Part shown: positions 40,108-64,000 of the stretch, one piece after another
How positions within the stretch are numbered: position 1 is the first letter of the stretch
Layout: each line of letters opens with the position of its first letter
Source: Candidatus Sumerlaeota bacterium
Lineage (GTDB): Bacteria; Sumerlaeota; Sumerlaeia; JAFGJS01
Length of the DNA stretch: 64,000 bases
Assembly (NCBI GenBank): GCA_016928995.1
Contig: JAFGJS010000054.1
Coordinates: forward strand, 1-64,000
Direction of reading: 5' to 3'
Translations under genes and position numbers: made by a program
Notes under the pieces: generated by a model
The model's input: the letters and a program-made list of their open reading frames with translations, nothing else
Databases searched by the model: none
What the model was told of the DNA's origin: nothing

Positions 40108-41361
40108 TCAATTCAGTTGAACCTCGACATCGCCCAAACGCAGACGATCACCGGCTTGAACCAGCAATGATCTCTTGTCAGGAAGCCGGATCCATTCTAT
40201 TCCGCTCCAGCGATAGGAGCCATTTCTGCCAACGGACTCAAGCCATGTCTCGGGTCCGATGCGATGGAAGATGGCATGCCGCTCCGACACCATCCGAGAG
40301 TTCCCCAGCTCCGTGCGGCCAATCACCGTCGAACCGTTCACTAAATGGATCGCGCCGCCATGGCCGCTGATCCTCATGGTCAAATGCGGGTACGGGGCGC
40401 CGCATAGCGGGCAAGCAATCTTTGATACATCAATAATGCAAGGGCAGCCGCATTTGGGATTCGGGCAGCAATATACGGCATGAAACGCCTTGTTGAGATT
40501 ATCCTTCCATCTGTTCGCTGACGGCCGTTCTGCCGGATGAACGCTCACGGCATTCCGGAACAATCTCGCCAGATCGGTGTTCAGAATCGCGGTGGGATAT
40601 CCAAACGTCTTGCCCCCCCCGCCTGGATCCGTGTATGCAGGATCCATCAGCCACTTGCCGGCGCACATCGCCTTCTGGAAATCATTCGCGTTGCTGTCGT
40701 TGCCTGCGGAAGGATGACAGAGAAGAATGATTTCATGCATCAACACGCCCAGCGAATACAGGTCTGTCAACAGCGTCGGCACAGCAGGCCGCTCTTGCGC
40801 CAAAGCCTTTCGCAATTCAGGGGCCATGTAGAGATTGTGCCCGATGCACGGCGGCGGCGGAATCCCTGGAGCGCTGAAATTATCCAAATCGATAATCGCG
40901 AGATGCAGCGCGGTGCCAATACGATGGACGATCAGATTCTCTGCGTGCAGGTCGCCATGGGCGATCTCACGATCGTGCAGCACGCAGATTGCATGAGCCA
41001 ACGCGATAGCCAGCTGCAATTCTTCAATGAACGTCGACTTGGGATTTCGCAGAAACTCTTCGAGCAATTGCCCCTGCGCCAACGGCGTGTAATGCCCAAC
41101 CAGGCTTCCTTCGCTCAACATATCGACAGGAGGCATAAGGACAGGACATGCTGAATGCAAATCTTGATCGATCAGAAACCGCAAGCGTTCTACTGTGGCG
41201 CTTTTCACGAATCGCTTGTGGAAGACTTTCAGCACGCCATCCTGACCAGTATCGGCCTCGGTCACCCGATAAGCCTCGCCCTGCCCTCCCGCCTTGATCA
41301 TGCTTTTAACGCAGAGACATCGACCGGAATCGGTTTTAATGATTTCGCCTTTTGGGATCAT
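40108..41361 (-). CDS. Ser/Thr protein kinase with zinc ribbon and FHA domain
   Basis: 417 residues; start at 41361 (MIPKGEII) with AAGGAGG 7 nt upstream. Kinase domain 1-290: glycine loop GGQGEAY, K45 in VLKVF, catalytic HGDLHAEN (D137, N142) and metal-binding DLD (D158) in place of DFG. Residues 298-321 form a zinc ribbon (CCPNPKCGCPC to CPLC). An FHA phosphothreonine-binding domain fills 345-417 (IGRTELGNS, SERHA, GRNGSY). HGD kinases with zinc ribbons occur with TerY-type vWA and PP2C genes, which are exactly its neighbours. Likely phosphorylates system proteins that FHA then reads. Last gene of the locus. Confidence 0.88.
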   Translation of the reverse strand: MIPKGEIIKTDSGRCLCVKSMIKAGGQGEAYRVTEADTGQDGVLKVFHKRFVKSATVERLRFLIDQDLHSACPVLMPPVDMLSEGSLVGHYTPLAQGQLLEEFLRNPKSTFIEELQLAIALAHAICVLHDREIAHGDLHAENLIVHRIGTALHLAIIDLDNFSAPGIPPPPCIGHNLYMAPELRKALAQERPAVPTLLTDLYSLGVLMHEIILLCHPSAGNDSNANDFQKAMCAGKWLMDPAYTDPGGGGKTFGYPTAILNTDLARLFRNAVSVHPAERPSANRWKDNLNKAFHAVYCCPNPKCGCPCIIDVSKIACPLCGAPYPHLTMRISGHGGAIHLVNGSTVIGRTELGNSRMVSERHAIFHRIGPETWLESVGRNGSYRWSGIEWIRLPDKRSLLVQAGDRLRLGDVEVQLN

Positions 41362-41377
41362 TGCATGGCCTCCTTTC

Positions 41378-43237
41378 TCAAACAACGGTCTCCAATGACG
41401 GCAGGCTGACATTATTTGCTTTCGCTTTTTCTTGAACTTGCCAGAATCCTTGAGTCAGTCTGGGGCTCGCGCCATACCCCATAATGCCCAGCGTAAGATT
41501 GTCGTCGCAGATATAACCAATGTTGTCCTTATAAGCAGCTAACTCCATCACGATATGCTCGGCGGTTTTCTGAAAATCGCCATTGCGCTGGATGCAGCCC
41601 CGCAACACGTCCTTCGGAAAAGTCGGCGGCACTCTGTCGAAAACGCCATCCGTGCCCGCGACGAGGAGATCGCTGGTTTCACACTTCACCGATCCAGTGA
41701 CAGGCTCCCCTTCCATTTTGGGGCCAAGCGAAGCGGCAAGAACATTGACTGTGAATGCATCCGCTTTCTGCGGTTCAAGGAACCGGCGAACCTCTCCCGA
41801 TGCCTTGACGATATAACCGCCGCCGTCGCCGATATAGGCATAGCCAACCTCATGCTGATTCCTGATGACAACGATAAGAGTCGTGCGAAGACCGCCGCGC
41901 AAGCTGGTGATGTTGAGTTTTTCTCCCTCCATCATCAGTTGATGAGCGGCATCGCTGATCGCTTCAGCGGCGGCGTCCTCAGCATGAGGGGCGCGTCTTC
42001 GCGACATGCCGTATGCTCGAATAATCGAATTCGCCGCGCTCATGGCCGCCAGATACGAAGCTCTCCGCCCATGGGGCACCCCGCCGCAGCCATCCGCGAT
42101 GATGAGGACATTGTACCTGTCAATCTGAAAACATAAGCCATAATCCTGATTTTCCGCTTTGACGTTGCCCTTGCTCGTCGCCAATCCGATTTCCCATGAT
42201 TTTGCCGGCAACCGCGGCTTGATTCGGAATCGCGAGGTCTTGCTGGCGGATTCGATCATCATCTGCATCTGTTCATCCGGCGAGGGCGGCGGCGGCGGCT
42301 CTTGGCGCGTCGGCTCGATCTTGATTGTTATTTCTTGATCTTGATCTTGATTGTGCACCGCGTCCATATCCACATCCGTTACCAGCGGCGTCATTAGGCT
42401 CTCATCGTCGATTACGCACGACTCATCCGAACAGAAAATTCCTTGTTCAATCTGGCCGTTGCGCTTGCCGGCTTCCATCCGTCGAGCCATTAGATAACTG
42501 AAGCCCATGATCACGATCGCCCAGAGACCCAGCTGCGCTGCGCCGAATTTTTTTTGCAGCCGGATCAAATCCTCATACAAAACCGCGACATCGCGGTCAG
42601 CCATTCCTCCATCAACGCCTTCACTGTTGATGACCTGAGCGTCAGACTTATCAGCCGTGAAATTCATAAGCGGCTTGGCGTTGTCAAAATGCTGCTCGAC
42701 TGGCGTCGCCAACAAGGTATTGCTGGTTGTCAGCTGATCCAATCGGCTCTCAATAATCTGGAGCCTGGCGGCGGCCTGTTCCCGATCCCGAACGATTGCT
42801 TTGCCCAATGCATCCCTGACTTCTTCCATATTCAGCTCAAGCTCCTTGATTTGATCCTGCGCCTTGTCGACTTGATCCTGGATTGCGCGATTACCAACGG
42901 CTTCCCGCAGCTTCAGGATTTCCGCTTCAAGCGCATTGATTCTTTGCATCGTTTCGCTTGTCGCCTGGGAAAGCGTCGGGACGCCGGTTGTTGTCACATC
43001 ATGATCAACCAGCTGCAACTCCACGGGAAACGCGCGTTGAACGAGAAAGAGCGTCAAAATCATAACTATGATAGCAATGACGCATTTCAGGAAGATGCGC
43101 CTGCCGGAATGCGCCGACGTTGCGTCAGACATGACCGTCAAGCCGTCCTTCTTGATTACTGGTTGGATCGGACATACACTGAAAGCGCCGATCAAAGCCA
43201 AATAATCCTTCTGTTCTTGAGTGGGGGGTGTACGCAT
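41378..43237 (-). CDS. Transmembrane PP2C-family protein phosphatase
   Basis: 619 residues. A first helix (about 49-67) and a second (about 235-251) enclose a coiled-coil segment (about 90-175) predicted to be periplasmic. Then come an acidic linker with a Pro run (EPPPPPSPDEQ) and a PP2C domain (349-600). Metal-binding motifs are intact: AENQD (E362, D365), ADGCGG (D382, G383), GTDGVFD and CDDNLTLGI. AAGGAGG precedes the ATG by 8 nt. It probably removes phosphates placed by the adjacent kinase and may sense an envelope signal through its outer coiled coil. The membrane-anchored form is unusual among TerY-associated PP2Cs, which are normally soluble. Confidence 0.88.
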   Translation of the reverse strand: MRTPPTQEQKDYLALIGAFSVCPIQPVIKKDGLTVMSDATSAHSGRRIFLKCVIAIIVMILTLFLVQRAFPVELQLVDHDVTTTGVPTLSQATSETMQRINALEAEILKLREAVGNRAIQDQVDKAQDQIKELELNMEEVRDALGKAIVRDREQAAARLQIIESRLDQLTTSNTLLATPVEQHFDNAKPLMNFTADKSDAQVINSEGVDGGMADRDVAVLYEDLIRLQKKFGAAQLGLWAIVIMGFSYLMARRMEAGKRNGQIEQGIFCSDESCVIDDESLMTPLVTDVDMDAVHNQDQDQEITIKIEPTRQEPPPPPSPDEQMQMMIESASKTSRFRIKPRLPAKSWEIGLATSKGNVKAENQDYGLCFQIDRYNVLIIADGCGGVPHGRRASYLAAMSAANSIIRAYGMSRRRAPHAEDAAAEAISDAAHQLMMEGEKLNITSLRGGLRTTLIVVIRNQHEVGYAYIGDGGGYIVKASGEVRRFLEPQKADAFTVNVLAASLGPKMEGEPVTGSVKCETSDLLVAGTDGVFDRVPPTFPKDVLRGCIQRNGDFQKTAEHIVMELAAYKDNIGYICDDNLTLGIMGYGASPRLTQGFWQVQEKAKANNVSLPSLETVV

Positions 43238-43274
43238 AGTAGCAACCTCCTTGGAATTGCCCTGCGAGAATGGA

Positions 43275-43970
43275 CTACTGCTGTTGAATCATCGCCAAAG
43301 CGTTTGAGGCGTTTGTGCCCGCCGCCATTGTCGTCGTCATTGTCGCGCCGACAGCCGCAAGAAAACTTCGCAGCTCAGAGCCTTTGGAGCATCGATAAAA
43401 GTGCTGCGACGTGCTTGCCAGGGCGCGCATCAACTCCTCATCCGCATCATGGCCGAACGCAACAGTCACAACATCAGCGATGTCTTTCAACGAAGCGGCG
43501 ATGACGCGGGGATCAGGCCCCTTGTTGTGACATCCATCCGTGAAAACAATGACCACCGGCTTCAGGTAGCGCACGTTATCCTGAACGTCAGCTTCGGCTT
43601 TCATTAAGATTGAAAATGCGTCTTCAAGACCCGCTGAAATATTGGTGCTGGTGTTGAATATGCTTACGGAGAGCTCTTTCAGCTTTCCACAAAGCGCCGT
43701 CGCCTTTTCATTGTCATGGATAATTTCGGAAGTCCTGGCGAAGTCGATCACAGAAACGTAAAAACCATCCTTATTCTCAGGCTCCGCAAGTTCGGCCACC
43801 AGGTCGCGGCATGCGGCCGAAGCGCATTTGGCTTTTTTTCCATACATTGATCCGGATTTGTCGCGAACAAGGACCACCCTCTGTTTTGCATTGCGACTGA
43901 TCCAGCTGGGCCGCCGAAAACCGGCGTATACATCATCCAACAGCGGCGAATCATCACTTTGGCTGATCAT
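43275..43970 (-). CDS. TerY-like vWA domain protein
   Basis: 231 residues, almost only a vWA domain. The MIDAS is complete: D37-K-S-G-S41, the Thr in STNIS and FTDGCHNKG. A short Ala/Thr-rich tail (MTTTMAAGTNASNAL) follows. AAAGGAGC precedes the ATG. TerY-type vWA proteins act as metal-dependent scaffolds with a kinase and a phosphatase; these follow here with gaps of 37 and 16 nt. Confidence 0.87.
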   Translation of the reverse strand: MISQSDDSPLLDDVYAGFRRPSWISRNAKQRVVLVRDKSGSMYGKKAKCASAACRDLVAELAEPENKDGFYVSVIDFARTSEIIHDNEKATALCGKLKELSVSIFNTSTNISAGLEDAFSILMKAEADVQDNVRYLKPVVIVFTDGCHNKGPDPRVIAASLKDIADVVTVAFGHDADEELMRALASTSQHFYRCSKGSELRSFLAAVGATMTTTMAAGTNASNALAMIQQQ

Positions 43971-43986
43971 GATAGCGCTCCTTTGA

Positions 43987-44736
43987 TTAGGCGGTCGTCA
44001 TCCGCATCGGCACGGTGCCGCCGCTCGAAACAGTGACGACAATCGATGCGGCGAGCTGCTCAGCGATCCTCTGCAGTTCGTCAGGATCTGGATCGTTGCT
44101 GATCTGGAAGACCAGGCCCTCGGCCAAGTCGGCCAACTCCTGCAGCATCGGCGTCGGTTCGCAGATCAAATACAGCAGGATTCCTTTGTCCTTGATCAGC
44201 ATCCCAAGATCGCCGGCCGAAACGCCGGATTTCGCCGGCTTCGTATCCGCGGTCATGAACGCGACGATGGCCCCGCGCGCACGAGAAGGATCGGCGGTCC
44301 ATGGAACGCGATCGAGCAGCGACTCAATCGCATCAAGGTGATGTTCCGGTGGATCTCCGCCGCCGCCATAAGAGATTTTCTTGATGTCATCAATGGCCTG
44401 CTCAGGCGTGCCGGCGTCCGTATGCATGATGATCTCCTGACCCTCATCGAGATCGCCGTGCGTTTGAACCCAGCATTTGACATCGCGAGCCTTGGCGGCG
44501 ACCTGCGACGCGATAATCTCATAAGCCGCTCCGATTCCAGACTGGAACCGCTCAGACGATCCCGTTCGATCAACGGTCACAGCCAGATCCACCTCGCATT
44601 GAATCTTGGGACGCGATGCGGGATTGAATAGCATGAGATCGTTTTGCCCCTGAGATTCCCGGATTCTCCATGCGCAATGAGGGCACGCATCCACAGCAGC
44701 ATCAATCGGGGTTTGGCAAGAAGGACAGTACATCAT
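43987..44736 (-). CDS. vWA protein with N-terminal zinc ribbon
   Basis: 249 residues; start at 44736 fixed by AAGGAG 8 nt upstream (a longer frame to 44820 is unlikely). C4-P-S-C7 and C18-P-H-C21 form a zinc ribbon. The vWA domain begins near 46 and has a D-R-T-G-S MIDAS variant (D56-S60), GGGGDPPEHHLDAIESLL, and FMTADTKPAKSG in the third loop. This subtype with DxTGS is frequent in stress- and MoxR-linked vWA proteins. First gene of the four-gene signalling cassette, after the repeat-containing gap. Confidence 0.85.
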   Translation of the reverse strand: MMYCPSCQTPIDAAVDACPHCAWRIRESQGQNDLMLFNPASRPKIQCEVDLAVTVDRTGSSERFQSGIGAAYEIIASQVAAKARDVKCWVQTHGDLDEGQEIIMHTDAGTPEQAIDDIKKISYGGGGDPPEHHLDAIESLLDRVPWTADPSRARGAIVAFMTADTKPAKSGVSAGDLGMLIKDKGILLYLICEPTPMLQELADLAEGLVFQISNDPDPDELQRIAEQLAASIVVTVSSGGTVPMRMTTA

Positions 44737-44876
44737 GGTTCGCTCTCCTTTGTGATAAATTGTTATGGCTCTCGAAAGTTCTATCGCTGGCAAATCCTGT
44801 AATCTGGCCGGACCATGCACGGTGCGTTAGAACTCCCAAGAACTACTATTAATCGTCCGATCAACAATTTTTGGGG

Positions 44877-44927
44877 GTTCGTGATTGTCAGTATTAAAAT
44901 TTTAACTACGATGCTGATTTCACGAAC
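44877..44927. promoter_or_regulatory. Palindromic operator-like site before the vWA/PP2C/kinase cassette
   Basis: Outer 8-bp arms (44877-44884 and 44920-44927) flank a 12-bp perfect AT palindrome (44894-44905). Lies about 140-190 nt upstream of the first cassette gene on the minus strand. Confidence 0.35.
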
Positions 44928-45129
44928 GAACATTTGTATTTTCCCTTTGTTGATTCCTTCTATTATCTACTAATGATCATCAGCCCGTTTTCTTTCACGG
45001 CAGGGATTCGTTAATGCACATTTTTTTTCGAATCGGCATCGATAGAAGATTTGAAGCGGGAGGGAAGATCTTAAAACGGCGGCAATACTGCGTATCAATC
45101 CACGGCGAAACGTTTTATTGAGCGGTTCT

Positions 45130-45284
45130 TGCTCTGTTGAAAGGCTATGAATTTATAATCGCACTCGTACGCGTACTCGTACTCGATAATAAGTTACAAT
45201 CCGGCACGAAAGCGATTAAATCGAGCACGAGTACGAGTGCCGCTACGCTGAGTACGAGTACGAGATAGGATTTTCAACAAAGCA
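45130..45284. mobile_element. MITE-like element with hexamer arrays
   Basis: 155 bp with terminal inverted repeats TGCTCTGTTGAAA and TTTCAACAAAGCA (12 of 13 matching) and a perfect 9-bp direct repeat AGCGGTTCT on both sides (45121-45129 and 45285-45293) like a target duplication. The inside holds two GAGTAC-type arrays in opposite orientation (45162-45184 and 45222-45265). Non-coding. The copy at 39.8 kb is also preceded by AGCGTTTCT, so the flank could instead belong to the element or reflect target choice. Confidence 0.55.
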
Positions 45285-45363
45285 AGCGGTTCTTAAAAGC
45301 CTTGTCCGCAACCATTGAATGCGGCCCAGTCGGCCGGCGACAGTTGAGTTTCAATGCAGCGCG

Positions 45364-48300
45364 TTAAAGTTTATCAATAAAAACCTTAAAAACGCCGTTC
45401 GACGAAGAGCAGAGCCAGAGAATATGAGGATTATCCGAATCCAGGACGCCATCGCAGAGATCGACGAATGGCTTACGCCCGATCCACCATGCGTCGTTGC
45501 TGGATGGGTATGACCGGGACTGGAAACGGATCTCATCGACTGAGACTTGAAATTCTCCCGGATCAAGACTCATCCCAAGAAACGGAAAAGGCGAAAAAGA
45601 CGATTTTTGCGGCGGCGTGCATAGCGCCCACAAATCACCTTCATGGAATCGAACTCGAAACACTGTTTGCAGGATCTGCGCATGGCTCTCTGCATCGCCA
45701 CCGAAGGATTTGAAGCCATTGGACCACTGCCCAGCTTTCCCATCGGGCGCCATAACTTCCAATAGCCGTCCCTTCGGATGCGTAATCACGGAAAGACCCG
45801 AATCAGACCAGGGCGCTTCCCATACTCCGCACATCGTGCCCAAGGCAAACGATTCATCATCAGGATTCGACGAAAGAGACAGGAAGTAATCAAACGCCCA
45901 CATTCGCACGTTAGAGCCTGGGAGCGCAAACAGCAACGACTCTCCATTCCTGATCCAGTCCCCATCGCTTATGCTGACATAGGGCAGCTGGCTATCCAGA
46001 AAGCGCTGTTTGACCGACCATTCCAGATTAGATTCATTAATGATTGCGCAATCTCCATTGCGAAATGCGCCGATGGCATCCGCAGTCAGTTGTTTTCGAT
46101 CAAAGGGGAAAACGCTGGTCAGATCATCGATCCCGCGCCCCCCCAGCTTGTCAGCGGACTGCGAAAGCCCCCATAGTCTGTCTTTATCAAAGCGGAGATA
46201 ATCATAACGCTTGGCTAGCAGTCTCACATCAATCAGGCGCAACTCGCCAGGTCTGGATCGGTCAGCCGCATATTTGAACAATTGGTAACCGGCGACTGAA
46301 GAATATTCCGATTCGCATCCATGCCAAATGATGGTGTTTTCAACTTCCGGCTCGCTGCAAACGGCATCGACGTTATCGAAAACAAACCGGCCGTTGACAA
46401 TGAAGTCATCGAACGGCATGCCATCCATCCTGATTTCAAGGCTGGCAAAGCGTGACAGGCTGCTCTTCAACGGCCAACTGTCTTCGAAGCAGTACTCAAG
46501 ATTGCCCGTTGGATTCCGGCGAGTTTTATTCAGGCTGACGACACTGCGGCGCAGCTTGCCGGCCGCCACATTTTTTTGAGCCGTAACGATGCGCTCATCA
46601 TTTCCGGTCAGCAGCGCCCAGTTCTTGGGAGTCCGCCAGTTCTTGACCATAACGCCGCAACGCAATCCTTCTTCATTGCGCGCTTCTTCGAGATCCCCAA
46701 TATCCACATCCTCGATCAAGCCTTCTTCAACGGCGTCGCTATTTCCATCCAGCCTTATCGCGATAATCCCCAGCTCCGTGGCGGCGACGATATTGTTCGT
46801 TGAAAGAACTTCAACATCAAACACATCATCCCATAAAAAGCGATTCTTTCCCCAGACTCGGGTCAGACATGTCCGATCGCCAGAGATCGAGCGAATCCAT
46901 GCCTGCCATTGACCTTTGTCTCTTCGCCATTCCGTCAGCAGTTTGGCAGCGCTTGCCGGCTCTGGTTCGAAATCTCTGGACCACAACGGTGTCGCAGAAT
47001 CGCCCAGACAACGCCATCGAAAATCGATCTCCGGCGCTTCAAGATATACGCCTTTGGCATCGCAGCCAAGCAAAAGCCCTTCCGGCATGCTTTCGGAGAA
47101 CGGCGCGTAGCGCGTGGTGTTCATGGGCTCCCTTGCGTCGCGCGTCAACAATCCACGATCAGGAAGCAGGGAGACAATTTCGTCACCGTCAGCGACAATT
47201 TGACCGCCGACATCCGAGAAGAATTTTCCCTTAACGAAAACACCGCCGTCGTCGCTCGTTGTGAAGCGGATGAAGTTCCCTTCTTCCTTCGCGCGCCAAG
47301 CCGCATTGGCATACAGCTCCGGGTCCGCTTGCGAACGCCATCCATCCGTCAGAATTCCTTCCCGTCCGTTTGACGGATCAAGGTGAAACGCCAGTCCACG
47401 GTGGCGGGTGTTGCAGATAAAAGCCGTATTGGATCCCTCGGCCACACTCACAACCCAGTCGTCCGCGAAACGATATCCCGTATCCTCCGCTTCCCATTTG
47501 CGTTCCACCGGAACCTGACGCTCGTCATTCCAATAAACTTGCTTGAGCTGACATTGTTGCAGGTCAAACAGCCATCGGCAGTCATTTCCCGCCCGGCATA
47601 CAAGTGATATGCTCTGGTCTTGCCCATTGCCACTTAGGACGCCGTTTTCATAGCATACAAATCCATCGGGCGTCTCGATAATGCAGTCGTTTGCTCCTCC
47701 TGAGTCATACACTGCATGAAAAAAGCGAATCCCCTGACGCAAGGGATGCCATGCCTGAAGTTGGAGCGTATTCTCGTCATGGATGCCAACGCCTGCGTCG
47801 GTCAAGATGATCAATTCGCCCGTTGCGGAGACATGCATATCGCGAGCCGCTTGCACGGCGAGTCTTTGCCCGGACCAAACCGGCGGCAACACATCACCGC
47901 TGTTTGCCGGATCAACCCAATGGAAAGCGAGTCCGCCCCCAGCCGCGGCGATGCATTGCAATTTTAATGGGCCATACGCAACGTCCGCGACAACGTGCTG
48001 CGTCTCCCCGTTGATCGTCCCCGTCAGGTCCGATAAGCGACGCTTCAGGTAGCGCGGCGATCCTTGCGGCGAAGCAGCCACAACAAGCCCCGCGGGAGAC
48101 GACGCCTGAAGCTCGGGTTCGAACTCCAGACTTGTTCGCTGCAAGATGTCCAAAGTTTTACGATCCGCATTGGGCGCCAGCACAAGGCGTCCGGAAGCGC
48201 ATTGAGCGATGATGCGTCCGTCATCCAACAGCAGCGCCTCATCATAGGCGTCCTCCACGAACCCGCCGTCCTGGCAATGCAATTCAATGAAATCTTCCTG

Positions 48301-53861: not shown

Positions 53862-53926
53862 TTGAATCATTCCCTGCGCGGAGCTCCTGGATTAGATCAA
53901 TCGCCAGCGCCCCGTCGATTTTTTTC

Positions 53927-54499: not shown

Positions 54500-54529
54500 A
54501 CGTCAAGATCGATTGAGCGAATGCTTCGG

Positions 54530-56536
54530 TCATTTCGATCGTTTTGATGCTGCGATCAGGTCGCTCAAGTTGCGTATGTCATCGCGCACCCGGGCGATAT
54601 CGTTACGGATTTGCACTGTTGATGCCGCGGTGCTGGCGGCGCCTTCCGTTGTCGTCGTCAGTTTGCGCGTTGATTTTTCCATCTTGTCAAAGGATCGCCA
54701 CAACCGGTTAAAGTCGTTCTTCAATTTGATATACTCGCTCTTCAGCGCTTTGACATCCGCCTCATGCCCTTTAATCATCCTATCAAGGTCCGTTCTCTGC
54801 TGATTGACATTCTGGACGCGCTCCGCTCCAGCGGAGACGATTCTCATGACTTCTTTCACGATCTCCCGGTTGATGGTCTTTTCCGCGGTCTCCTTGATAT
54901 GATCGATGGTCGACTCGGACTTGAGCATTGATTCCGCAAAGCTGTCAACTTCGTCGAAAAGTTCGACTTTCACGCTATGCTGGGCGAGACCTGCCTTGAT
55001 TTCAGAAAGCGGCCGGAATTGATCCATGGGAAGGGAAAAGGTCTTCACGGACCCCTCTGTTCCGGCGACCGGAGCAAACAGCGCAATATGCCTTGTGAAA
55101 TCTTGTTCTCCAAAAAGAGCGGCGCCCAATTTCCGCGCGGCCAATGGTCCCGGCTGCATTCGCGGCACGAGAAACAATGAACGGCCCGCCGGAATAAACA
55201 TTTTCAAGTTCACCTGATCGCGCCATGCCATGCTCAAATCAAACCGGCTGATCGCCAGCCCCCGTCCGCTCCGTTCATATCCTCTCAGCCGCAGTCCGAT
55301 ATCCGCGTTCTGTTGCGGCGCCGCCCCAATCGCATAGTCGGTCGTGACGATGTGAAGCGCCTCCGCGTTCGGCGCCAGCTCCTTTGGGACCGGACAGATG
55401 CGGGCATAATGGACGCGCCCAAGTTCATCCTCATCATCGATCCATTCAAGGATCAACGCGCTGAGTTCCGGAGGGACTACAGTCATCGAGTCGCTTGGAA
55501 ATAAAAGAAGGGGATCGGGAAATGGCAGAACAGCGGCATCCCGGTGTTTCCTGATGAGTTGATTCAGTTTTTTTATCTGCCGTTCACGCGAAGCGATGTC
55601 CGCTTTCAATTCGCTGATGCGCGCTTCAAGCTTCTGTTCACGGCGGCCTTCCCGCAATTTTATCTCCAGCGTGAAGCGGCTTTCTTTCGCCTGCTCGCGA
55701 CTCATGGATTTGCCGGAGGATGTGTCTAATTTGCCGCTTGCCGCCGTTGTTATTTTCGTGCTGACGGGCAACTTCAAGAAAACAGAGTCGCCATAAAGAT
55801 CAACAATATGCGGAGGCCGGGAAGACAGAAGCACACGGTGAGGCGACGCATCTCCCCATTGAAGTTTGCTCAGCCATTTCATCGGTGATAAAATCTCGTA
55901 CGGCCACTCGATGTATATCGCCGGCTGGCGGGATTCTGTCGCCCGCCACCAGATCCGCACATCCGGATTCAGCAGGATTGCATGCGGAGGCTCCCACCCG
56001 AACACGCCGTTTTTTACTTCAAGTTCCCAGAAGAAAGAAAAAGGCGAATTCCCCGCATCCCACGCCACCGGACAAGCGCCCACCATCGTCGTGTCCAGAT
56101 TACACAAGATTTTAAGCACATACTGCGCCTGTTCATCGTTTCGAGCGCCGATCAAGAAGCGCGCCTTCGGACCAAAAGGAATCCCCTCTTCGTTGTGCTG
56201 ACGCCGCCAAGCGCCGAAGCGCCCGGCATAAAGCCCATGATGCCGCTGCCGGCATTCCTGTTTCCAATAGACCGGATCCCGCCGTTTCCACGCCGCTTCT
56301 CGCATCAGGCAATCGGCGAAGCGCTGCGTCACGGCTTTTCTGTTTGATGGAGGTTCAGGCGCATATTCCCATTTACACATGGCGATAGTGTTCCGAAAGT
56401 ATTCTTCGTCGTGAGTGAGATCCTCATGATCGACAAGATACCAATCATCCACCCGCTCCATTGTCTTGGGAAACAGCTTGTTAAAAGTCTGAAACGCGTC
56501 CGCGACATGCTCTGCATGTTTGAAATAGTAAGTCAT
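54530..56536 (-). CDS. Large conserved-looking protein of unknown family with two coiled coils
   Basis: 668 residues. The first 280 residues are rich in Trp and aromatic residues (FSFFWELEVKNGVFGWEPP, DVRIWWRATE). A coiled coil spans about 285-335 (EARISELKADIASRERQIKKLN), a beta-rich middle follows, and a second long coiled coil closes the chain (about 570-668). The start overlaps the stop of the 517-residue gene (ATGA). No known domain recognised; possibly equivalent to one of the bpX-type domain proteins of MoxR-vWA-beta-propeller systems, by position only. Confidence 0.6.
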   Translation of the reverse strand: MTYYFKHAEHVADAFQTFNKLFPKTMERVDDWYLVDHEDLTHDEEYFRNTIAMCKWEYAPEPPSNRKAVTQRFADCLMREAAWKRRDPVYWKQECRQRHHGLYAGRFGAWRRQHNEEGIPFGPKARFLIGARNDEQAQYVLKILCNLDTTMVGACPVAWDAGNSPFSFFWELEVKNGVFGWEPPHAILLNPDVRIWWRATESRQPAIYIEWPYEILSPMKWLSKLQWGDASPHRVLLSSRPPHIVDLYGDSVFLKLPVSTKITTAASGKLDTSSGKSMSREQAKESRFTLEIKLREGRREQKLEARISELKADIASRERQIKKLNQLIRKHRDAAVLPFPDPLLLFPSDSMTVVPPELSALILEWIDDEDELGRVHYARICPVPKELAPNAEALHIVTTDYAIGAAPQQNADIGLRLRGYERSGRGLAISRFDLSMAWRDQVNLKMFIPAGRSLFLVPRMQPGPLAARKLGAALFGEQDFTRHIALFAPVAGTEGSVKTFSLPMDQFRPLSEIKAGLAQHSVKVELFDEVDSFAESMLKSESTIDHIKETAEKTINREIVKEVMRIVSAGAERVQNVNQQRTDLDRMIKGHEADVKALKSEYIKLKNDFNRLWRSFDKMEKSTRKLTTTTEGAASTAASTVQIRNDIARVRDDIRNLSDLIAASKRSK

Positions 56537-58086
56537 CGTGAAACTCCAGCGGACTTCAGCATTTGTGATGTCCAGGAACAGGCCAGCCGTAAAAACTCCT
56601 CGCGCAGTTTAGAGAAAAGGTCTCCGCGCGCGCCGACTGAATTTGTGGGTGAGGCTGGCTGCAGTTCGCAGCCCACGCTCGAGTCCCTCTTATTATATAA
56701 AACAGACCAGAGAGAAGCCTTTCCGTCGACGGTCTCCAGAACAACGAGATGATGGAGATTGCGCGGAAGAGCGTAACGCTGTTTGTCCGGCGAAACCGCC
56801 GCTGCCCTTTTCAAACGCTCCAGATCCTTACGTAAAATAATCCCGCAACGCCAATGCACAGGCAAAGCGTCTTCACGCGTTCGCGCCTCGCTCCAAGACC
56901 ATTCAGCGTCCGGCCATTCAAGAGCATAAGGACGTGAAAAAATGGCCCGGATCAGCGAGACTGGCGGCATGCACAATGCATTGGAGCCCTTCCACTTGTC
57001 ATCTTCGTACTCCAGCACTTGATAGAACGCGGGGATGGCGCGGGAAAACGCGCAAGTGATCTGGAGCCGATCACAAAGCATTTCACGCAAGTCATGCGCC
57101 AAAAGCAGCACGACAGCAGGAAGCGCCGAAGCTGGACTGGCTATGATTTTGGCGCCGTTAGGATCGGGTTCGAGCATGACGTCGGATTGTTCGATGAACG
57201 TCGACTCATACGAAGAAGCCCAACAGAACTCAACGACAAGCTCAGGATCTGGGAACGATTCGGGAGGAGCGTTCAGCCGGGGATCCTTTCCATTCGCCAG
57301 CAGCCATTCCCCATATTCGCCCAACATGAGAGTGAAAGGCGAAAACTGACCCCATCTGGCATATTCTTCATATGTTCGGACGATAGGATCGCAGACCGTC
57401 GCCCGGCGGGCTCGCAACAAGATGTCATAGTAGGGAACATTTTCGGAAGCTGCGGATGCCTTGAGAAACACGCCGATTGCCGCGTAATCCAAACGCTCAA
57501 GAAAGTTGCCGTCGCCATAGGCGGCCTCATACGCGTCAGTCGCCAAAGCCCCCGCTTCAACGCCTGGTTGCGCGGCCTTGATGAACCAATCCCAATGCGA
57601 TGACGTGGTCTTTTGCGCGCCCCAATTTCGACTGGCTTCATTAATGTCAGCCAAGGAACTTCGTATATTCACGGCCATATCAGCATACTCATCCATGTCC
57701 ACCACGGCCATCAGGGGAGATTGAAGCTGCATCCATGCCCGCATCAGCACCGGAAGCAAGCTGGCGCAGACATCATGATTTCTTGCGTCCTGACTCGATT
57801 TGCGGCCAATCGCGGTCTGCAGACCGCACAGATTGCCGGTCACCCCTTCAAGCCAGCCGCTATAGGCCTCGGATAAATCATGTGCCGGCAGAGAATAGTA
57901 GCCGATGATCGGCAGCATTGTGGCCACGCAGGAGTCCAAAACAAGCGGAAGCGGAAGAGGACAGCCGAATTGCGCGGATGTGGAAACAATGTTCAACGCG
58001 CGATCCAACATCGCCCGCTTGTCGCTCTCTTCATGAGGGACAAGCATACAGCAGGAGGTTGATTGTAAAAGGGCGGACTTTTCCAT
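56533..58086 (-). CDS. Protein of unknown family next to MoxR
   Basis: 517 residues, no membrane segment or signal peptide. The N-terminal half is helical (GWLEGVTGNLCGLQTAIGRK); the C-terminal half has a mixed pattern with LRKDLERLKRAAAVSPDKQ and LHHLVVLETVDGKASLWSVLY. Nine nt downstream of the MoxR gene and coupled to the 668-residue gene, so the three are probably made together. No function can be given. Confidence 0.6.
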   Translation of the reverse strand: MEKSALLQSTSCCMLVPHEESDKRAMLDRALNIVSTSAQFGCPLPLPLVLDSCVATMLPIIGYYSLPAHDLSEAYSGWLEGVTGNLCGLQTAIGRKSSQDARNHDVCASLLPVLMRAWMQLQSPLMAVVDMDEYADMAVNIRSSLADINEASRNWGAQKTTSSHWDWFIKAAQPGVEAGALATDAYEAAYGDGNFLERLDYAAIGVFLKASAASENVPYYDILLRARRATVCDPIVRTYEEYARWGQFSPFTLMLGEYGEWLLANGKDPRLNAPPESFPDPELVVEFCWASSYESTFIEQSDVMLEPDPNGAKIIASPASALPAVVLLLAHDLREMLCDRLQITCAFSRAIPAFYQVLEYEDDKWKGSNALCMPPVSLIRAIFSRPYALEWPDAEWSWSEARTREDALPVHWRCGIILRKDLERLKRAAAVSPDKQRYALPRNLHHLVVLETVDGKASLWSVLYNKRDSSVGCELQPASPTNSVGARGDLFSKLREEFLRLACSWTSQMLKSAGVSR

Positions 58087-58095
58087 GATTGACGC

Positions 58096-59406
58096 CTAGA
58101 TAAACGGATTTATTTTGCGCAGCAAATCGCCCTCGGCCTCGGGCGAATCCCAGATCAGATTGAAGATGCCAAGTTCATTCGAATCGGGAGATTTGATCAA
58201 GCGGCCAGCAGTGAACGAATCATCGCAAAGCAGCGCGTGGGCGAGCGCGACTTTTTTCAGCGACCGGAGCTTCCGGGGCGAAATCGTCCACGTGATTTGA
58301 TGCATGCTGGGATCCGTGTTGTTCTTCATCAATTCCAGGGCGATGTTGATAAAGCGCTCATTAAAACTTTTTACTTCACCAACGTCGAACGCATCGATGT
58401 CATCCCAGAACATCGCGCGTCCGGCGAATAAAAGATCGTTGACACACGCACGCTCTTCGGGTCGCACCGGCAAATCCAACAACGTCTCATGAAAATCGTC
58501 GTCATTGATGAACCTCGACTGCTCTCTTTGCCATGCCTTATTGACGGCATTGACCATGCTCGAATTATTCACATCTCCATCGTCGGAGCCGAAGGACAAC
58601 GTCGGCACGCGCAATCGAACAGAAAAGCGGTCCAAAAAAGCGTAAAGGAAGGAAAAATCCTCGCCTCTTTCCGCCACGCCCGGCACGGCGCCGCCAAACT
58701 GACCCGGCATTTCATTTGTCGCTCCAATCAGCATCACAGCGTCAGCAGGCACATTGGCGCCCCAGTTGAAGTAAGTTCGCTCCTGAAGAAGCGTCAGCAG
58801 CGTGTTTAGGATCGAGCTGCTGGCCTTGAACACTTCATCGAAGAAAAGACCTCGCACACCGGGTCCAGTCGCGAAACTGAAGTTGATCCGAACCAATATT
58901 CCTTTTTTCATATATTCCAGACTCAGAGGGCCGAAAATTTCATCGGGCTGAGTGTAGCGGCTCAGCAGATAGTGAAAGTACTTCTGCACTTTCTGCTCTG
59001 CGTCGCTGCGCGCATGCCATTGCCGGATGTCCTCCACCGGCATTTCCAACAACTGGGCGTGTTGATCATCAACGCAAGCTTCAGACAAACCCAAGAGGCG
59101 ATAAGCGAGCAAAGCGATTTGTGTCTTCGCCGTTCCCGGAGGTCCGATCAGCAAGACGTTTTCACGGGCGATGAGACCGGCCAACAGCCAATCCGTCAAA
59201 TAGCCGGCGATATGCCGAGCGCCTTCGTCATTCGGCCCCATGCCGACAAATGCGCGCCGGAGAATGTCTCGCGCCTGCCGCAGCCGTCTCATGCTGATGT
59301 CCAGCCACTCTTGCAGCTGGGCCTTGTCGGGCCATTCCTTATCGCTTTTCCGCCCCAAAATCAGATTTGACCATTGAGGCGAACTCCAATCGCTGGGCAA
59401 AGGCAT
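58096..59406 (-). CDS. MoxR-type AAA+ ATPase
   Basis: 436 residues. Walker A IGPPGTAKT (87-95), the MoxR/RavA signature YTQPDEIFGPLSLEYMKKG (151-169), Walker B GLFFDEV (D190, E191), the MoxR-specific LLTLLQERTY, sensor 1 GATNE (N231) and the arginine finger LDRFSVRL (R260) are intact. The C-terminal lid follows with an extension to about 436, longer than a minimal MoxR. MoxR ATPases act as chaperones that remodel vWA partners; two vWA genes lie in this locus. GAGAGG precedes the ATG. Confidence 0.9.
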   Translation of the reverse strand: MPLPSDWSSPQWSNLILGRKSDKEWPDKAQLQEWLDISMRRLRQARDILRRAFVGMGPNDEGARHIAGYLTDWLLAGLIARENVLLIGPPGTAKTQIALLAYRLLGLSEACVDDQHAQLLEMPVEDIRQWHARSDAEQKVQKYFHYLLSRYTQPDEIFGPLSLEYMKKGILVRINFSFATGPGVRGLFFDEVFKASSSILNTLLTLLQERTYFNWGANVPADAVMLIGATNEMPGQFGGAVPGVAERGEDFSFLYAFLDRFSVRLRVPTLSFGSDDGDVNNSSMVNAVNKAWQREQSRFINDDDFHETLLDLPVRPEERACVNDLLFAGRAMFWDDIDAFDVGEVKSFNERFINIALELMKNNTDPSMHQITWTISPRKLRSLKKVALAHALLCDDSFTAGRLIKSPDSNELGIFNLIWDSPEAEGDLLRKINPFI

Positions 59407-59460
59407 AATCCGCGCCTCTCTCTATCAGGTTGTGTTTGATCATGTCCGGAATATTACATC

Positions 59461-59961
59461 TTATATCTGACGCTCGCGTTTCAGCTCGTGATTCACTTCG
59501 CGATCCGGGCTGCGCTTTTCTAAAAGTCTCATGCATTCGAGTACGGCGACTTTCACGCTGGTCTTATCGCAGGGAAGCGATTCCAACTGCCCATCCCAAT
59601 CCAAATCGGGAAACATTTGATTGAGAATTTCGATCAAATGTTCACTGGTGTGAACGAGCAGCTTATTGTGTCCTTTCATGCATTCATCATGCGCATTCAC
59701 CGGCCCTTCAAACTGCACGGTCATTCCAATATCACCGATAGTTTCATCGCCGACAGAAATGCCGATGCACACATTCCCGGTGCCGGATTCCAACGGTCCC
59801 CTGATGGAATCCGCTTCGATTTCCTTTTTTCTGGGAATAGGGTCATCGGTTGACGCAATCTCGACATACTCAATCTCCGGGTTGTCTTTTTCTTCCGCGG
59901 TCAGCTTGCGTTCACGGTAGACTTTCGGCTTCTGGGGAAACTTGACGCTCTTGGCGCTCAT
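59461..59961 (-). CDS. Small protein of unknown family
   Basis: 166 residues from MSAKSVKF at 59961, with AAGGAG 8 nt upstream. A charged lead (KPKVYRERKLTAEEKDNPE) precedes a domain of about 110 residues with VCIGISVGDETIGDIGMTVQ and VHTSEHLIEILNQMFP. No motif recognised. It lies between the MoxR gene and the 195-residue gene and is likely an accessory subunit. Confidence 0.55.
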   Translation of the reverse strand: MSAKSVKFPQKPKVYRERKLTAEEKDNPEIEYVEIASTDDPIPRKKEIEADSIRGPLESGTGNVCIGISVGDETIGDIGMTVQFEGPVNAHDECMKGHNKLLVHTSEHLIEILNQMFPDLDWDGQLESLPCDKTSVKVAVLECMRLLEKRSPDREVNHELKRERQI

Positions 59962-59982
59962 TTTCAATTCTCCTTGTCTTCA

Positions 59983-60570
59983 TTACCAGCCGGAGGCGCA
60001 AAATGCATTGATACGAATGGTCCGTTCTTTGACAACCTCTCGCTCTCTTATTTGCACTCGCTCCTTCCCTTTCAGTTTCAGCTTTTCTTCGACCTGCCGC
60101 GCGATCGTCTCTGCGATCAGACTATTGACCTCCAGATTGACAAACTGCGCCACCTCCGGGCTTATCTTGTGTTGCTGACTTTGCGCTTCATTTTCCAAAG
60201 CCATTTTTTGATTTGCATCTTCGCGCACTGTGACCTCGACCCCAAAAAAAGACTCCGATCGAACGGTCATTCCCGCGTGGCCCCGTTCTCCTTCGAGATG
60301 AATGCGCAATCGATTGATGTTTTGCAGATCCGTTCGCTGTATCGGTTTAATTTCCCGCATGATGTGAATTTTGTTGCCTTTTTCCTCGACTAGCCAACCC
60401 GGATTCTGAAGGGCTGTCTCCTTGATCTGCTCAACGCCCTCGCAACCGAGCCAGGCCGCCAAATCCACTCCCTGAAAACCTTCAGCCTGAAATTCCCCTC
60501 GAGCTTTCAGAAATTTTTGAACTTCCGGAGTTTTCCGAGCTCTTAGAGAAACGCGTGTTCTTGATGACAT
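59983..60570 (-). CDS. Small protein of unknown family with DUF1257-like layout
   Basis: 195 residues from MSSRTRVSL at 60570 (GGAGA at 6-nt spacing). The middle has beta strands (MTVRSESFFGVEVTVRED) and the end a basic helix-strand part (QVEEKLKLKGKERVQIRERE). The overall shape recalls small DUF1257-type proteins that often accompany a two-part AAA+ ATPase, as the next gene upstream is; this is a weak resemblance. 21 nt upstream of the 166-residue gene. Confidence 0.5.
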   Translation of the reverse strand: MSSRTRVSLRARKTPEVQKFLKARGEFQAEGFQGVDLAAWLGCEGVEQIKETALQNPGWLVEEKGNKIHIMREIKPIQRTDLQNINRLRIHLEGERGHAGMTVRSESFFGVEVTVREDANQKMALENEAQSQQHKISPEVAQFVNLEVNSLIAETIARQVEEKLKLKGKERVQIREREVVKERTIRINAFCASGW

Positions 60571-60642
60571 CTCAATTCTCCATTTCATCCGGACGCGCCC
60601 AAAGCGCCGTATTGTATTTCAATCATTGCTTCATCTGTTGGC

Positions 60643-62280
60643 TTAAAAACCGTAATATCCCTTGAGTTGTTTGACGTGCGATCCTTCCGGTCCATTCGCC
60701 CCCACAATGTTTGCAAACCGTCGCATCGCCTGAACAATATCGCGGGCGGCGAACAAACCCGTGTCTAACTTTCGTCTTGTTTCCACATTATTCATCTGTG
60801 TATCAGCAACTGCGCCGGGCCTCGTCGGCCCCCAGAAAAAATCGACAAGCGCTTTTCGCGTCGCCTCATCGATCGTGAGCCCGAAGCGGCGCTCGCCATT
60901 CTTCACCAGCGCCTCAATCTGAGCTTTGGTCGTCGGAAAGGGAACGCGTAAATGCAGATCGAAACGCTTAAGAGCTGCGTTGTCCAACGATGAGACACGG
61001 TTGGTCGTCAGCACCAGCAACACGCCGGAGCTGTCCTTCTTGAATCCCTGGATTTCCTGCAGAATGGCGTTCACTACCCCGATCTCGGCTTCCGCGACGG
61101 CGCCCTTGACAGCATCGCGGTTTTGCAGGATGTCGTCCGCGTCATCCAACACAAGCATGCATGGGGCCGCTCGTCGCGCATCGGCGAAGCATCGAGACAC
61201 GGCCCGCTCGGCCGCGCCCCAATCCGGCTGTTTGAATCGTTCGGGATGAACCACCTGCACGGGTATGTTCAAATTCGCGGCGATGATTCGCGCCAAGGTT
61301 GTTTTGCCTGTGCCTGGCGGCCCTTCAAGCACAACGCCAGCCGGCAGCCGTTCCCGCAAAATAGAATCCGGACATCGAAGGAATTGCTCATAAGGCTGCT
61401 CAACTTCACATTGCACTCGTTTTAAAACCTCCTCGTTAAAACCTGCGCGTTCATCGTCGGATTCCTGCTTGGATACGAGTTCAAAGTCGATCGTCCGAGT
61501 TTTCCACCAGATCTTTTTAAAGATCTCATTCTCTTCGGTATCCCGCTTCCGATCACACATAATCTCCACAGCGGCGATTGGATCCATCCATCGCAGATGT
61601 GAATGCAACCGGGCGATTTTATCAGTCCTTAATCGGTCGCCATCGGCCAGGCGCCGTCCCAGCGAAAGGGGTATGATGCGATGGAAGAGTTGCCTGGGTA
61701 TTTCGCGCAACCAGATGATGTCCGTGAAGGGGCGTTCAAGGCATGACGGAAGCCGCCCGTCTTCGCGCGAAGCGAGTCCGAGAACGGTGCCGGCCCGCAC
61801 CGCCGACACCAAAGCGTAATACGCCGCCTGGACTTCCTGAGCGCTATGCAAGTTTCCATGGGCGTCCACCATGAAATCCAGATTATGAAAGATCGTTGAA
61901 CGAGAGACGCTTTTTTCATTGCCTTTGAGGAAACCGAGGATCGTGGCGAAGACATTCACGCCCTCTTTCCAGGCGTCAAACATAGTCTCACCGCGTTTCT
62001 GAGGATGCTGCCCGTATTCGACCCATTGATTATCGTGATTGACATACTTGGCAGCGGCTCCGATGCATTTGGATGGAACATAAACGAGCACAGAGCCCTT
62101 GCGCAGACGCTCCACAACATCCTCAAACGGCGCTCGAAATCCGCCATTGTTTTGCTCGCCTTCCATCGCGCCGTAAGCTCGGGCAAACACCTCGCGTTTC
62201 CAGGATTCACTGCCGAGCTCTCCGACGTCTGCGTGCGATTCATTGAATAACGAGGTTATCTTTTGATCTTGGAAACTCAT
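60643..62280 (-). CDS. Classic AAA+ ATPase with degenerate N-terminal module
   Basis: 545 residues. The C-terminal AAA+ core has Walker A EGPPGTGKTT (319-328), Walker B MLVLDDADD (D379, D380), sensor 1 TTN (N427) and arginine finger LKRFD (R439). The preceding 300 residues lack Walker motifs, but residues 158-205 (GTVLGLASREDGRLPSCLERP and after) resemble the sensor-1/finger half of an AAA domain, so the N-terminus may be an inactive AAA copy. AAGGAG lies 7 nt before the ATG. Second ATPase of the locus, distinct from MoxR; probably a remodeller. Confidence 0.85.
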   Translation of the reverse strand: MSFQDQKITSLFNESHADVGELGSESWKREVFARAYGAMEGEQNNGGFRAPFEDVVERLRKGSVLVYVPSKCIGAAAKYVNHDNQWVEYGQHPQKRGETMFDAWKEGVNVFATILGFLKGNEKSVSRSTIFHNLDFMVDAHGNLHSAQEVQAAYYALVSAVRAGTVLGLASREDGRLPSCLERPFTDIIWLREIPRQLFHRIIPLSLGRRLADGDRLRTDKIARLHSHLRWMDPIAAVEIMCDRKRDTEENEIFKKIWWKTRTIDFELVSKQESDDERAGFNEEVLKRVQCEVEQPYEQFLRCPDSILRERLPAGVVLEGPPGTGKTTLARIIAANLNIPVQVVHPERFKQPDWGAAERAVSRCFADARRAAPCMLVLDDADDILQNRDAVKGAVAEAEIGVVNAILQEIQGFKKDSSGVLLVLTTNRVSSLDNAALKRFDLHLRVPFPTTKAQIEALVKNGERRFGLTIDEATRKALVDFFWGPTRPGAVADTQMNNVETRRKLDTGLFAARDIVQAMRRFANIVGANGPEGSHVKQLKGYYGF

Positions 62281-62388
62281 TGTCTCTCCTTTTCATCTGC
62301 AGCCGCGTGTCCATCCTGCGATGGGCTTGTTCTTAAGAGCGCATGCGAGGCGCTCCATCTTGGCCTCTATTTTCTAACAATGTCGAAA

Positions 62389-62410
62389 CGTCCTGAGATC
62401 TTTCAGGACG
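62389..62410 (-). terminator. Short hairpin over the stop codon of the 527-residue gene
   Basis: An 8-bp stem (62389-62396 with 62403-62410) with a 6-nt loop includes the stop codon and is followed on the minus strand by only TTTCGACATTG. Weak; it may partly separate this gene from the AAA+ gene downstream. Confidence 0.3.
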
Positions 62411-64000
62411 GGGTGTTTTTTTCACTCGCAACCTCCTTTACTTTTTTTGTCGGGAGAAGGCTCTGCATCGCGGGCGATAAGATTTCGACGCAGCGGCTAG
62501 GGGGACAGCTTGAGAAATGCGTCTCGTGGCGGTCTTCGTCATAGAGCGCGGGCACCGCGACGCCCTTTGAGTAAAAACGAAAAAGAACATTTTCAGCTTG
62601 AGTCCGGCTGAGCCCTGTTTCTTGTGAGAATATGGCGGCGTCGTATTTTTCCGGAATATTAAACAACTCCGTGACGGTGAAGTTTGCGTTTTTTTTTAGG
62701 CCCAGGAATTTCGCCGCCAGACGGCGTCCCAGACTTCTTTCCGGTCCGAAGGCTGTCTTTAGCGACGGGTATTTCTTATCCGGAAACAATTCCTTGCAGC
62801 CCTCCGTTGATCGGAGCGACTGGCTCACGGTCCTCCGTATCAGCATATCGAGAAAAAGGAACCGCACGCCCCCCCCTTGCGGAGTGGCGGCAACCTCCGC
62901 GAAAACCTGATTACGCCGATCCAATGCGGCCTTGACTTGCTTGGCAAGATCGGCCGCGGCAGCATGCAAGCCCCGCGCAACCATCTGGAGCTTGACCTTC
63001 CGAAACCGTTCTCTCCGGCCACGGCGAGTTTTGACATCATCGCGAATGGCATTCGCTGCTTCAGAAATGCGTTCGGCCTCGCTGACGGCGAGCTGAGCCG
63101 CCAACTCTGGATAGACTTCGTTTTGAAGCGAACCCATCATGGATTTGGCCAAGAGGGAGTAAAAAACCCGCAGCCAGGAAACCCCTTGCGTTTCGCGCGA
63201 CGCCGCGATGCCATCGAGCAGACCGTTCGTTGAGGAGCTCGGTTCGCCGGCTCCGATGAGGTCGGCGTAGATCAGTTGCGAAAGGGGGCTGGCGGCGGAG
63301 ACCGTTTGAATCAGCTTCATCCATTGCCTTGCGGACTCGCTCCTGCTCGGAACGTGATTGCCGGATCGCGCCTGCCTCTCAGCGCGCTCCTCCGTCGCCA
63401 AAACAGACAGCCGTTCGTCAGTCAGCAGACTAACGCGCCAATATGCTTCGATGACTTGCGCGTTGCGGAAGCCGCCGGGCGCAATATATCTCGAGAAACG
63501 CTCAGACAGAGGCGCTGCGCGCAGCGATGCGCACGCGGCGAATATCGTATCTTCCAAGAGCAAGTTGAGCTGAAGAAAATCCCCAGGGAAATCCATGCCT
63601 GTGATTTGATAAATAACCGCGAACGATTTTTTATCCTTGCTGAATTGAGTCAACGCATCGCTCAACGCTCCGGGTGAAATCCGCCCATCCCAGGCTTCAT
63701 TCAGCGCGCAAGCCCAAGCCAGCGGTTTGCCGCCGGATTGACATAGCCCTTGCGGAAACCACCCGTCGAAGACGCTGACATGAGGCCATGCGAGCTTCAC
63801 CACATATTTCAAAAGCCGGGCCGTCATGGCTTCGCGCAACTGACCAAGCTCCGCACAAGCCTCCGCAATATTTCGCGCAGGCTTTTTTAACGTGTTACCA
63901 GGCAAAGGGAGGTTCAACGCGCAGAAATCCCACAAGGAGCCCTGGCTTCGAAGAGCGTGAATGAGCTTGGGCCCCGAGCCCAGCATTGGGCGAAGAGCTG
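62403..64000 (-). CDS. Large helical protein of unknown family, 5'-partial
   Basis: At least 527 residues are visible. The first ATG in the window is at 63986, but there is no stop codon between it and the edge and no ribosome site in front, so the true start probably lies outside. Mostly helical (LAVSEAERISEAANAIRDDV, AAAADLAKQVKAALDRRNQV). The end has a small Cys-containing part (HFSSCPPSRC) after a helix-turn-helix-like stretch (FSQETGLSRTQAENVLFRFY). Same strand as, and 122 nt from, the AAA+ gene; it shows that the locus extends to the right. Confidence 0.6.
   Translation of the reverse strand, partial: ALRPMLGSGPKLIHALRSQGSLWDFCALNLPLPGNTLKKPARNIAEACAELGQLREAMTARLLKYVVKLAWPHVSVFDGWFPQGLCQSGGKPLAWACALNEAWDGRISPGALSDALTQFSKDKKSFAVIYQITGMDFPGDFLQLNLLLEDTIFAACASLRAAPLSERFSRYIAPGGFRNAQVIEAYWRVSLLTDERLSVLATEERAERQARSGNHVPSRSESARQWMKLIQTVSAASPLSQLIYADLIGAGEPSSSTNGLLDGIAASRETQGVSWLRVFYSLLAKSMMGSLQNEVYPELAAQLAVSEAERISEAANAIRDDVKTRRGRRERFRKVKLQMVARGLHAAAADLAKQVKAALDRRNQVFAEVAATPQGGGVRFLFLDMLIRRTVSQSLRSTEGCKELFPDKKYPSLKTAFGPERSLGRRLAAKFLGLKKNANFTVTELFNIPEKYDAAIFSQETGLSRTQAENVLFRFYSKGVAVPALYDEDRHETHFSSCPPSRCVEILSPAMQSLLPTKKVKEVASEKNTPS

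Follow-up and report, generated by a model that had tools for sequence, protein, structure and literature searches.

The genome of a Candidatus Sumerlaeota bacterium (4.5 Mb in 161 contigs) carries on contig C97 (169,482 bases) a 31-kb cluster of 18 genes, all on the minus strand between positions 40,108 and 71,118, in which a MoxR-type AAA+ ATPase is accompanied by a giant membrane-anchored protein, a vWA/PP2C/kinase set and several proteins of no recognised family. This raises the question whether these genes together form one device, and what such a device would do. The window (the whole stretch of DNA that was analysed, 64,000 nt, corresponding to positions 1-64000 of the contig) ends within the cluster, which extends 7 kb beyond its right edge; contig coordinates past that edge continue the window numbering. 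The answer we favour, with a probability of about 0.4, is that the cluster was acquired laterally and builds a sensing machine of many proteins, in which a scaffold remodelled by MoxR would be combined with a phospho-switch and with an output made of a CHAT protease and a sigma factor.

Fourteen intact minus-strand genes lie between 40,108 and the window edge, which cuts the last of them (p548), in agreement with the original prediction of at least 14 one-strand genes with tight gaps and overlaps. The intergenic gaps are mostly shorter than 60 nt, with two exceptions of 122 and 543 nt, and overlaps are found between the PP2C and kinase genes (35 nt), between the genes of the 525- and 2321-amino acid (aa) proteins (37 nt) and between p517 and p668 (4 nt). 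The two different AAA+ ATPases predicted for the window were confirmed as a member of the bpMoxR family (PF20030, 4e-29) and a classical AAA protein (PF00004, 5e-27), and motif inspection found the catalytic motifs of the kinase, the phosphatase and three ATPases intact. Matches to "sigma-70"-type promoters occur at chance level in both scanned stretches (the window stretch and the one to its right), while terminator-like sites are at chance level in the window stretch and number 22 in the right stretch (15±4 expected), with no clear assignment.

The centre of the locus consists of the following genes:

62403..64000, minus strand, gene continuing to contig position 64049: p548, core protein, distant homologue of p553 of the relatives described below
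58096..59406, minus strand: MoxR-type AAA+ ATPase (PF20030, 4e-29, 101.6 bits for a cut-off of 27)
56533..58086, minus strand: p517, core protein without Pfam family (E 1e-13 to 1e-15, same position in three of three relatives)
54530..56536, minus strand: p668, core protein with coiled coils and without Pfam family (E 1e-26 to 1e-29, same position in three of three relatives)
52293..53870, minus strand: 525-aa protein with four transmembrane (TM) segments, weak match to the N-terminal part of a fused protein of about 2480 aa in the relatives
45364..52329, minus strand: anchored, apparently beta-rich protein of 2321 aa (homologues in the three relatives, E 1e-60 to 1e-68)

Relatives of the MoxR protein were sought by one scan of 84,980 genomes, which returned three metagenome-assembled genomes (MAGs), two titled UBP9 and one titled "bacterium", that resemble each other and count as approximately one independent lineage. 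Their MoxR proteins are 43-45% identical to that of the window (47% in another comparison), and in all three, homologues of p517, p668 and the 2321-aa protein come after the MoxR gene with order and strand unchanged, and p553 directly precedes it. The kinship of p548 with p553 is distant (hhalign E 8e-5; local scores of 88-107, compared with about 42±6 in shuffles). The remaining sampled genomes of the phylum to which the window genome belongs yielded no MoxR relative, and a search of 386 genomes, plasmids and IMG/VR gave partial matches to the AAA module only and no further close relative. Because their homologues are colinear in the relatives, the core of the locus is, as judged from sequence comparison, composed of p548, MoxR, p517, p668 and a scaffold of the 525- and 2321-aa proteins. 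The neighbourhood comparison, which the original prediction had named as its refuting test, favours the joint travel of these large unassigned genes with MoxR and speaks against a fixed linkage of TerY-P to them.

The giant protein of the relatives (about 2480 aa) starts with some 480 residues bearing up to four predicted TM segments, and the 525-aa protein probably corresponds to this N-terminal part: BLASTP gave 6e-4 in a four-protein set, the TM topologies agree well, and the alignment score was 80, compared with 39±5 in shuffles, for the best of three relatives, with one of the three not significant. The 2321-aa protein itself has a TM segment at residues 39-57 and a central coiled coil at about 1102-1310, most of which is lacking in the relatives. 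It had been described as a giant anchored propeller; it does have the TM anchor and looks beta-rich, but the propeller was not confirmed, since no propeller family was matched at threshold (best values 0.15 for the window protein and 0.031 for one relative), the two halves are not detectably repeats of each other, and the AlphaFold model of residues 60-740 was too poor for a fold search (pLDDT 33.2). A profile search of the PDB with this protein gave noise only, and the model of p668, built from a four-sequence alignment, was likewise too poor for a fold search (pLDDT 38.6). A blade-like W/G motif, chosen ad hoc, occurs five times in the 2321-aa protein, compared with 1.2±1.1 times in shuffles; the enrichment is too weak and the motif was dropped as proof of a propeller.

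The locus is likely laterally acquired. Its G+C content is 54.1% (40.1-71.1 kb) compared with 57.7% and 57.0% in the flanks, and the mean G+C content at third codon positions (GC3) of the 18 genes is 0.60 compared with 0.74 in eight flanking genes (p=1.7e-4), the lower GC3 counting as no more than supporting evidence because the flanking set was picked by hand. Directly to the left of the locus and convergent with it lies a gene (37289-39760, plus strand) for a hybrid histidine kinase of 823 aa with HisKA, HATPase, three receiver domains and Hpt, which looks native on account of its GC3 of 0.74.

The candidate phospho-switch of the window genome occupies the left end of the locus:

40108..41412, minus strand: Ser/Thr kinase of 434 aa with zinc ribbon and FHA-like C-terminus (PF00069, 2.3e-12)
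41378..43237, minus strand: membrane PP2C phosphatase of 619 aa (PF13672, 1.7e-13; metal-binding Asp motifs)
43275..43970, minus strand: TerY-like stand-alone vWA protein of 231 aa, MIDAS motif DKSGS intact (PF00092, 1.6e-13)
43987..44820, minus strand: zinc-ribbon vWA-like protein, 277 aa as listed (CPSC/CPHC and DRTGS motifs; VWA_4 sub-threshold at 0.0067)

The last of these genes probably starts at 44736, giving a protein of 249 aa. The cassette is a TerY-P triad by its sequence, comprising the TerY-like vWA, the PP2C and the zinc-ribbon kinase, arranged as in the ter locus of plasmid pNDM-CIT. The kinase, which has catalytic HGD and DLD motifs and zinc-ribbon cysteines, is 26% identical to its pNDM-CIT counterpart over 361 aligned positions (E 8e-21), a match that spans the kinase domain, the zinc ribbon and the C-terminal extension; the corresponding values are E 3e-5 for the PP2C and E 1e-7 for the 231-aa vWA protein. 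Different from the known triads (ter loci; CoCoNuT-associated), the PP2C has two TM segments predicted from hydropathy (about 48-66 and 233-251), the first vWA protein carries a zinc ribbon of its own, and no TerD-family protein was found in the window genome. The earlier description of this set thus stands for the TerY-P name and for the membrane PP2C and in part for the rest: the kinase is clear and its FHA domain is sub-threshold (0.019), and of two announced vWA proteins one is clear, the other resting on its sub-threshold match, MIDAS-like motif and zinc ribbon.

The relatives have other control modules at the same core, with a Ser/Thr kinase on each side in all three and a histidine kinase (dCache-HAMP-HisKA-HATPase) directly upstream in both relatives examined. 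These genomes hold 20-25 kinases each, so two kinases at one such locus are unlikely to be there by chance. A receiver domain was found in all four flanking kinases of the two MAGs checked with Pfam; together with the dCache histidine kinase, these fusions suggest a relay from His-Asp to Ser/Thr phosphorylation.

The original prediction recognised no effector in view and placed the output possibly beyond the right edge. This looks right, as a probable CHAT protease was found there among four genes:

64042-65880 (contig), minus strand: Ycf46-type AAA+ protein of 612 aa (AAA665, named from the longest open reading frame), P-loop intact in the C-terminal half only
65906-69514 (contig), minus strand: CHAT-like/pseudokinase/degenerate-AAA protein of 1202 aa (PF12770, E 7.9e-4, below the cut-off)
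69524-70447 (contig), minus strand: zinc anti-sigma factor, from the sequence right of the window
70513-71118 (contig), minus strand: extracytoplasmic function (ECF) sigma factor, from the sequence right of the window

In the 1202-aa protein the residues H205 (in FLGH) and C257 (in IFAC) of the CHAT-like region stand in the expected contexts, the kinase-like domain reads HGN where HRD would be expected and lacks DFG, and the AAA domain has no P-loop, which makes it probable from sequence that the protein joins a CHAT protease with a pseudokinase and a degenerate AAA domain. The genes of the ECF factor, the anti-sigma factor and the CHAT-like protein adjoin one another, with gaps of 65 and 9 nt. 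For AAA665 we take the Ycf46-type label to be appropriate; it is the window genome's only match of this type (E <= 1e-25), and most sampled members of the class carry a copy elsewhere. AAA665 was set aside as a system-specific FtsH component, its homologues being common.

The machine that we propose would have as its membrane scaffold the four-TM subunit and the giant anchored protein, which form a single chain in the relatives. A MoxR ring, acting with p517, p668 and p548, would remodel the assembly state of this scaffold, as may be expected from the MoxR family. The state of the core would be set by a detachable phospho-module, TerY-P in the window genome and histidine plus Ser/Thr kinases in the relatives; the TerY-P set would act as a phosphorylation-dependent switch. 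The CHAT-like protease, presumably kept inactive by its pseudokinase and AAA parts, would constitute the output and, once released, would cut another protein, for which the adjacent zinc anti-sigma factor is the simplest candidate, after which the freed ECF sigma factor would drive a response that possibly includes the locus itself. A scan for ECF-type promoter patterns in front of the sigma gene, AAA545, p201 and TerY-P gave no match. Cleavage of the anti-sigma factor is a plausible lead drawn from the Craspase precedent, since the CHAT protease Csx29 cleaves Csx30, an inhibitory binding partner of an ECF sigma factor (PMC10028731). The CASP/Craspase sigma pathway (Csx29-Csx30-CASP-sigma) and our locus share a CHAT-type protease, in our locus a probable one, encoded beside a candidate inhibitor and an ECF sigma factor; they differ in that Csx30 is replaced here by a zinc anti-sigma factor, whose cleavage is hypothetical, and that no Cas7-11 or CRISPR component was recognised among the locus proteins.

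This proposal draws on the colinear core, the match between the split 525- and 2321-aa proteins and the fused chain, the kinases bracketing the core, the ter-like order of TerY-P, the intact motifs, the adjacency of the ECF and CHAT genes and the low GC3. Several observations weigh on the other side. The conserved core is known from two lineages only, and the structure models of p668 and of the 2321-aa protein (pLDDT 38.6 and 33.2) are unusable. The CHAT match lies below the Pfam cut-off, and searches of the PDB and of plasmids with the CHAT segment gave nothing useful and no convincing relative. Neither the relatives' loci nor 241 other genomes yielded a homologue of the CHAT protein, so that its coupling to the core is seen in one operon. 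Finally, 543 nt lie between TerY-P and the core.

The last point bears on whether the cluster is one system at all. The genes and the boundary concerned are:

60643..62280, minus strand: AAA545, classical AAA+ ATPase of 545 aa, FtsH/PAN/IetA-like (PF00004, 4.9e-27)
59983..60588, minus strand: p201, no family above threshold in the Pfam scan
59461..59967, minus strand: p168, TTG start, no family in the Pfam scan
53927..54499, minus strand: coiled-coil protein of 190 aa (coil190), no homologue found by Pfam scan or in the relatives' loci
44821..45363, no strand: 543-nt gap at the TerY-P/core boundary, with a copy of a palindromic element resembling a miniature inverted-repeat transposable element (MITE) at 45189-45286

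The gap divides the vWA/PP2C/kinase cassette from the rest of the locus. The palindrome in it (fold z -4.3) belongs to a dispersed family with 16 matching places and about 14 elements in the genome (arms CTTGCTTTGTTGAAA / TTTCAACAGAGCAAG), and another copy, in inverted orientation, follows shortly after the kinase gene, so that the copies at 39780-39885 (plus) and 45189-45286 (minus) bracket TerY-P, which on these grounds may be a separately acquired and separately transcribed cassette. Further copies are present at C97:76084-76140, 87795-87857 and 98026-98192. It is conceivable, though on balance somewhat unlikely, that island accretion brought together two or three separate systems without joint function, namely one of MoxR and scaffold, a TerY-P switch standing alone and an ECF/CHAT regulon. 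The gap with its repeats would fit this, as would the occurrence of the relatives' core without TerY-P and without ECF/CHAT (neither these genes nor AAA545, p201, p168 and coil190 were found in the three relatives' loci), and TerY-P is known as an add-on to a variety of systems (PMC11090510). Against accretion speak the location of all 18 genes on one strand, the tight spacing and overlaps from the ECF gene through the 2321-aa gene, the position of AAA545, p201 and p168 between two core genes, and the similar GC3 throughout. The "one large device" of the original prediction was not supported as a unit of fixed composition, the core recurring without TerY-P and TerY-P being set off by the gap and its dispersed repeat.

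The MoxR-vWA-beta-propeller ternary systems, to which kinship had been suggested, are defined by a vWA domain fused to a propeller (PMC7159879, subsystem 4; bpMoxR, bpX). The locus shares with them a bpMoxR-family ATPase (PF20030), a large membrane-anchored partner, additional linked proteins of unknown family and the lack of a classical toxin in the core. It differs in that neither the vWA-propeller fusion nor the bpX domain was detected, the vWA proteins being short and stand-alone, and in that MoxR, whose P-loop GPPGTAKT lies at residue 88, is extended by an N-terminal segment and contains an insert. As regards the third ternary component, which has a variable N-terminus, a TM segment and a propeller, the locus shows TM segments and an apparently beta-rich chain, with the N-terminus split off from it and no threshold match to a propeller. 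The kinship is thus borne out for the MoxR family and not for the system as defined. No vWA or bpX Pfam domain was found in p517, p668, p548 or the 525- and 2321-aa proteins, although an overly divergent vWA may escape hidden Markov models. Six genomes from the phylum of the relatives do carry a bpMoxR operon, two of them with a confirmed bpX6 domain, and its MoxR is 28-29% identical to that of the window. The p517, p668, p553 and giant proteins were tested with hhalign as homologues of the bpX6-system partners, and no profile similarity was found, the MoxR control scoring 99.6%. In these six 8-Mb genomes the operon is compact (bpMoxR, a protein of about 540 aa, bpX6 protein), and the ~540-aa protein has no Pfam family, yet follows MoxR in six of six.

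With the FtsH-containing MoxR ternary systems (PMC7159879, subsystem 3) the locus has in common MoxR with an AAA+ protein whose N-terminal half looks inactive and whose C-terminal half looks active, a gene for a putative caspase-like effector and several orphan proteins. It differs from them in that the double-AAA protein is of the common Ycf46 type and the vWA proteins belong to TerY-P; a Pfam search of the 18 genes found no Ubl, E1, E2, RING, JAB or radical SAM, nor EAD/NEFF1 as far as Pfam holds these. The locus is a variant related through MoxR to both the propeller-type and the FtsH-type ternary systems, and a member of neither. Caspase-like effectors occur in several MoxR ternary classes (PMC7159879), which lends something to the view that the CHAT protease kills or arrests the cell upon sensed invasion, as proposed for MoxR conflict systems, with the ECF pair setting dosage only. 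The variation of partner modules around a constant core and the island-like composition agree with such anti-invader suicide, which we nevertheless consider clearly unlikely: PADLOC recognised no defence system at the locus (NCBIfam and PADLOC giving generic kinase and AAA matches only for the ATPases and kinases), and the effector is not present in the relatives. That the locus is a housekeeping envelope chaperone, in which MoxR matures a large membrane complex in the manner of RavA/ViaA or CoxD/E and phosphorylation tunes the process, is very improbable, for although characterised MoxR proteins work mainly in complex assembly (PMC7159879) and the core includes a large membrane protein but nothing that is obviously a toxin, none of the other sampled members of the phylum has the locus, and the codon usage of the locus is unlike that of the flanks.

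Returning to the sensing machine, a bolder version would make the vWA-independent MoxR scaffold a transferable chassis whose phospho-input (histidine kinase/REC-kinase or TerY-P) is swapped from lineage to lineage and which in the window genome gates an anti-sigma-cleaving CHAT protease, as a non-CRISPR counterpart of Craspase; we regard this as a long shot. The locus delimits a group of unknown proteins that are conserved together with a MoxR ATPase, with no detectable vWA partner in the core, and a core free of vWA, if true, would limit the rule by which the MoxR ATPases of this clade operate with a vWA co-chaperone. It also presents two lineages in which the core is combined with different kinase modules, and TerY-P beside a concrete candidate target. 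If the link between the CHAT protease and the anti-sigma factor is true, caspase-like enzymes would be found to free sigma factors outside CRISPR systems as well.

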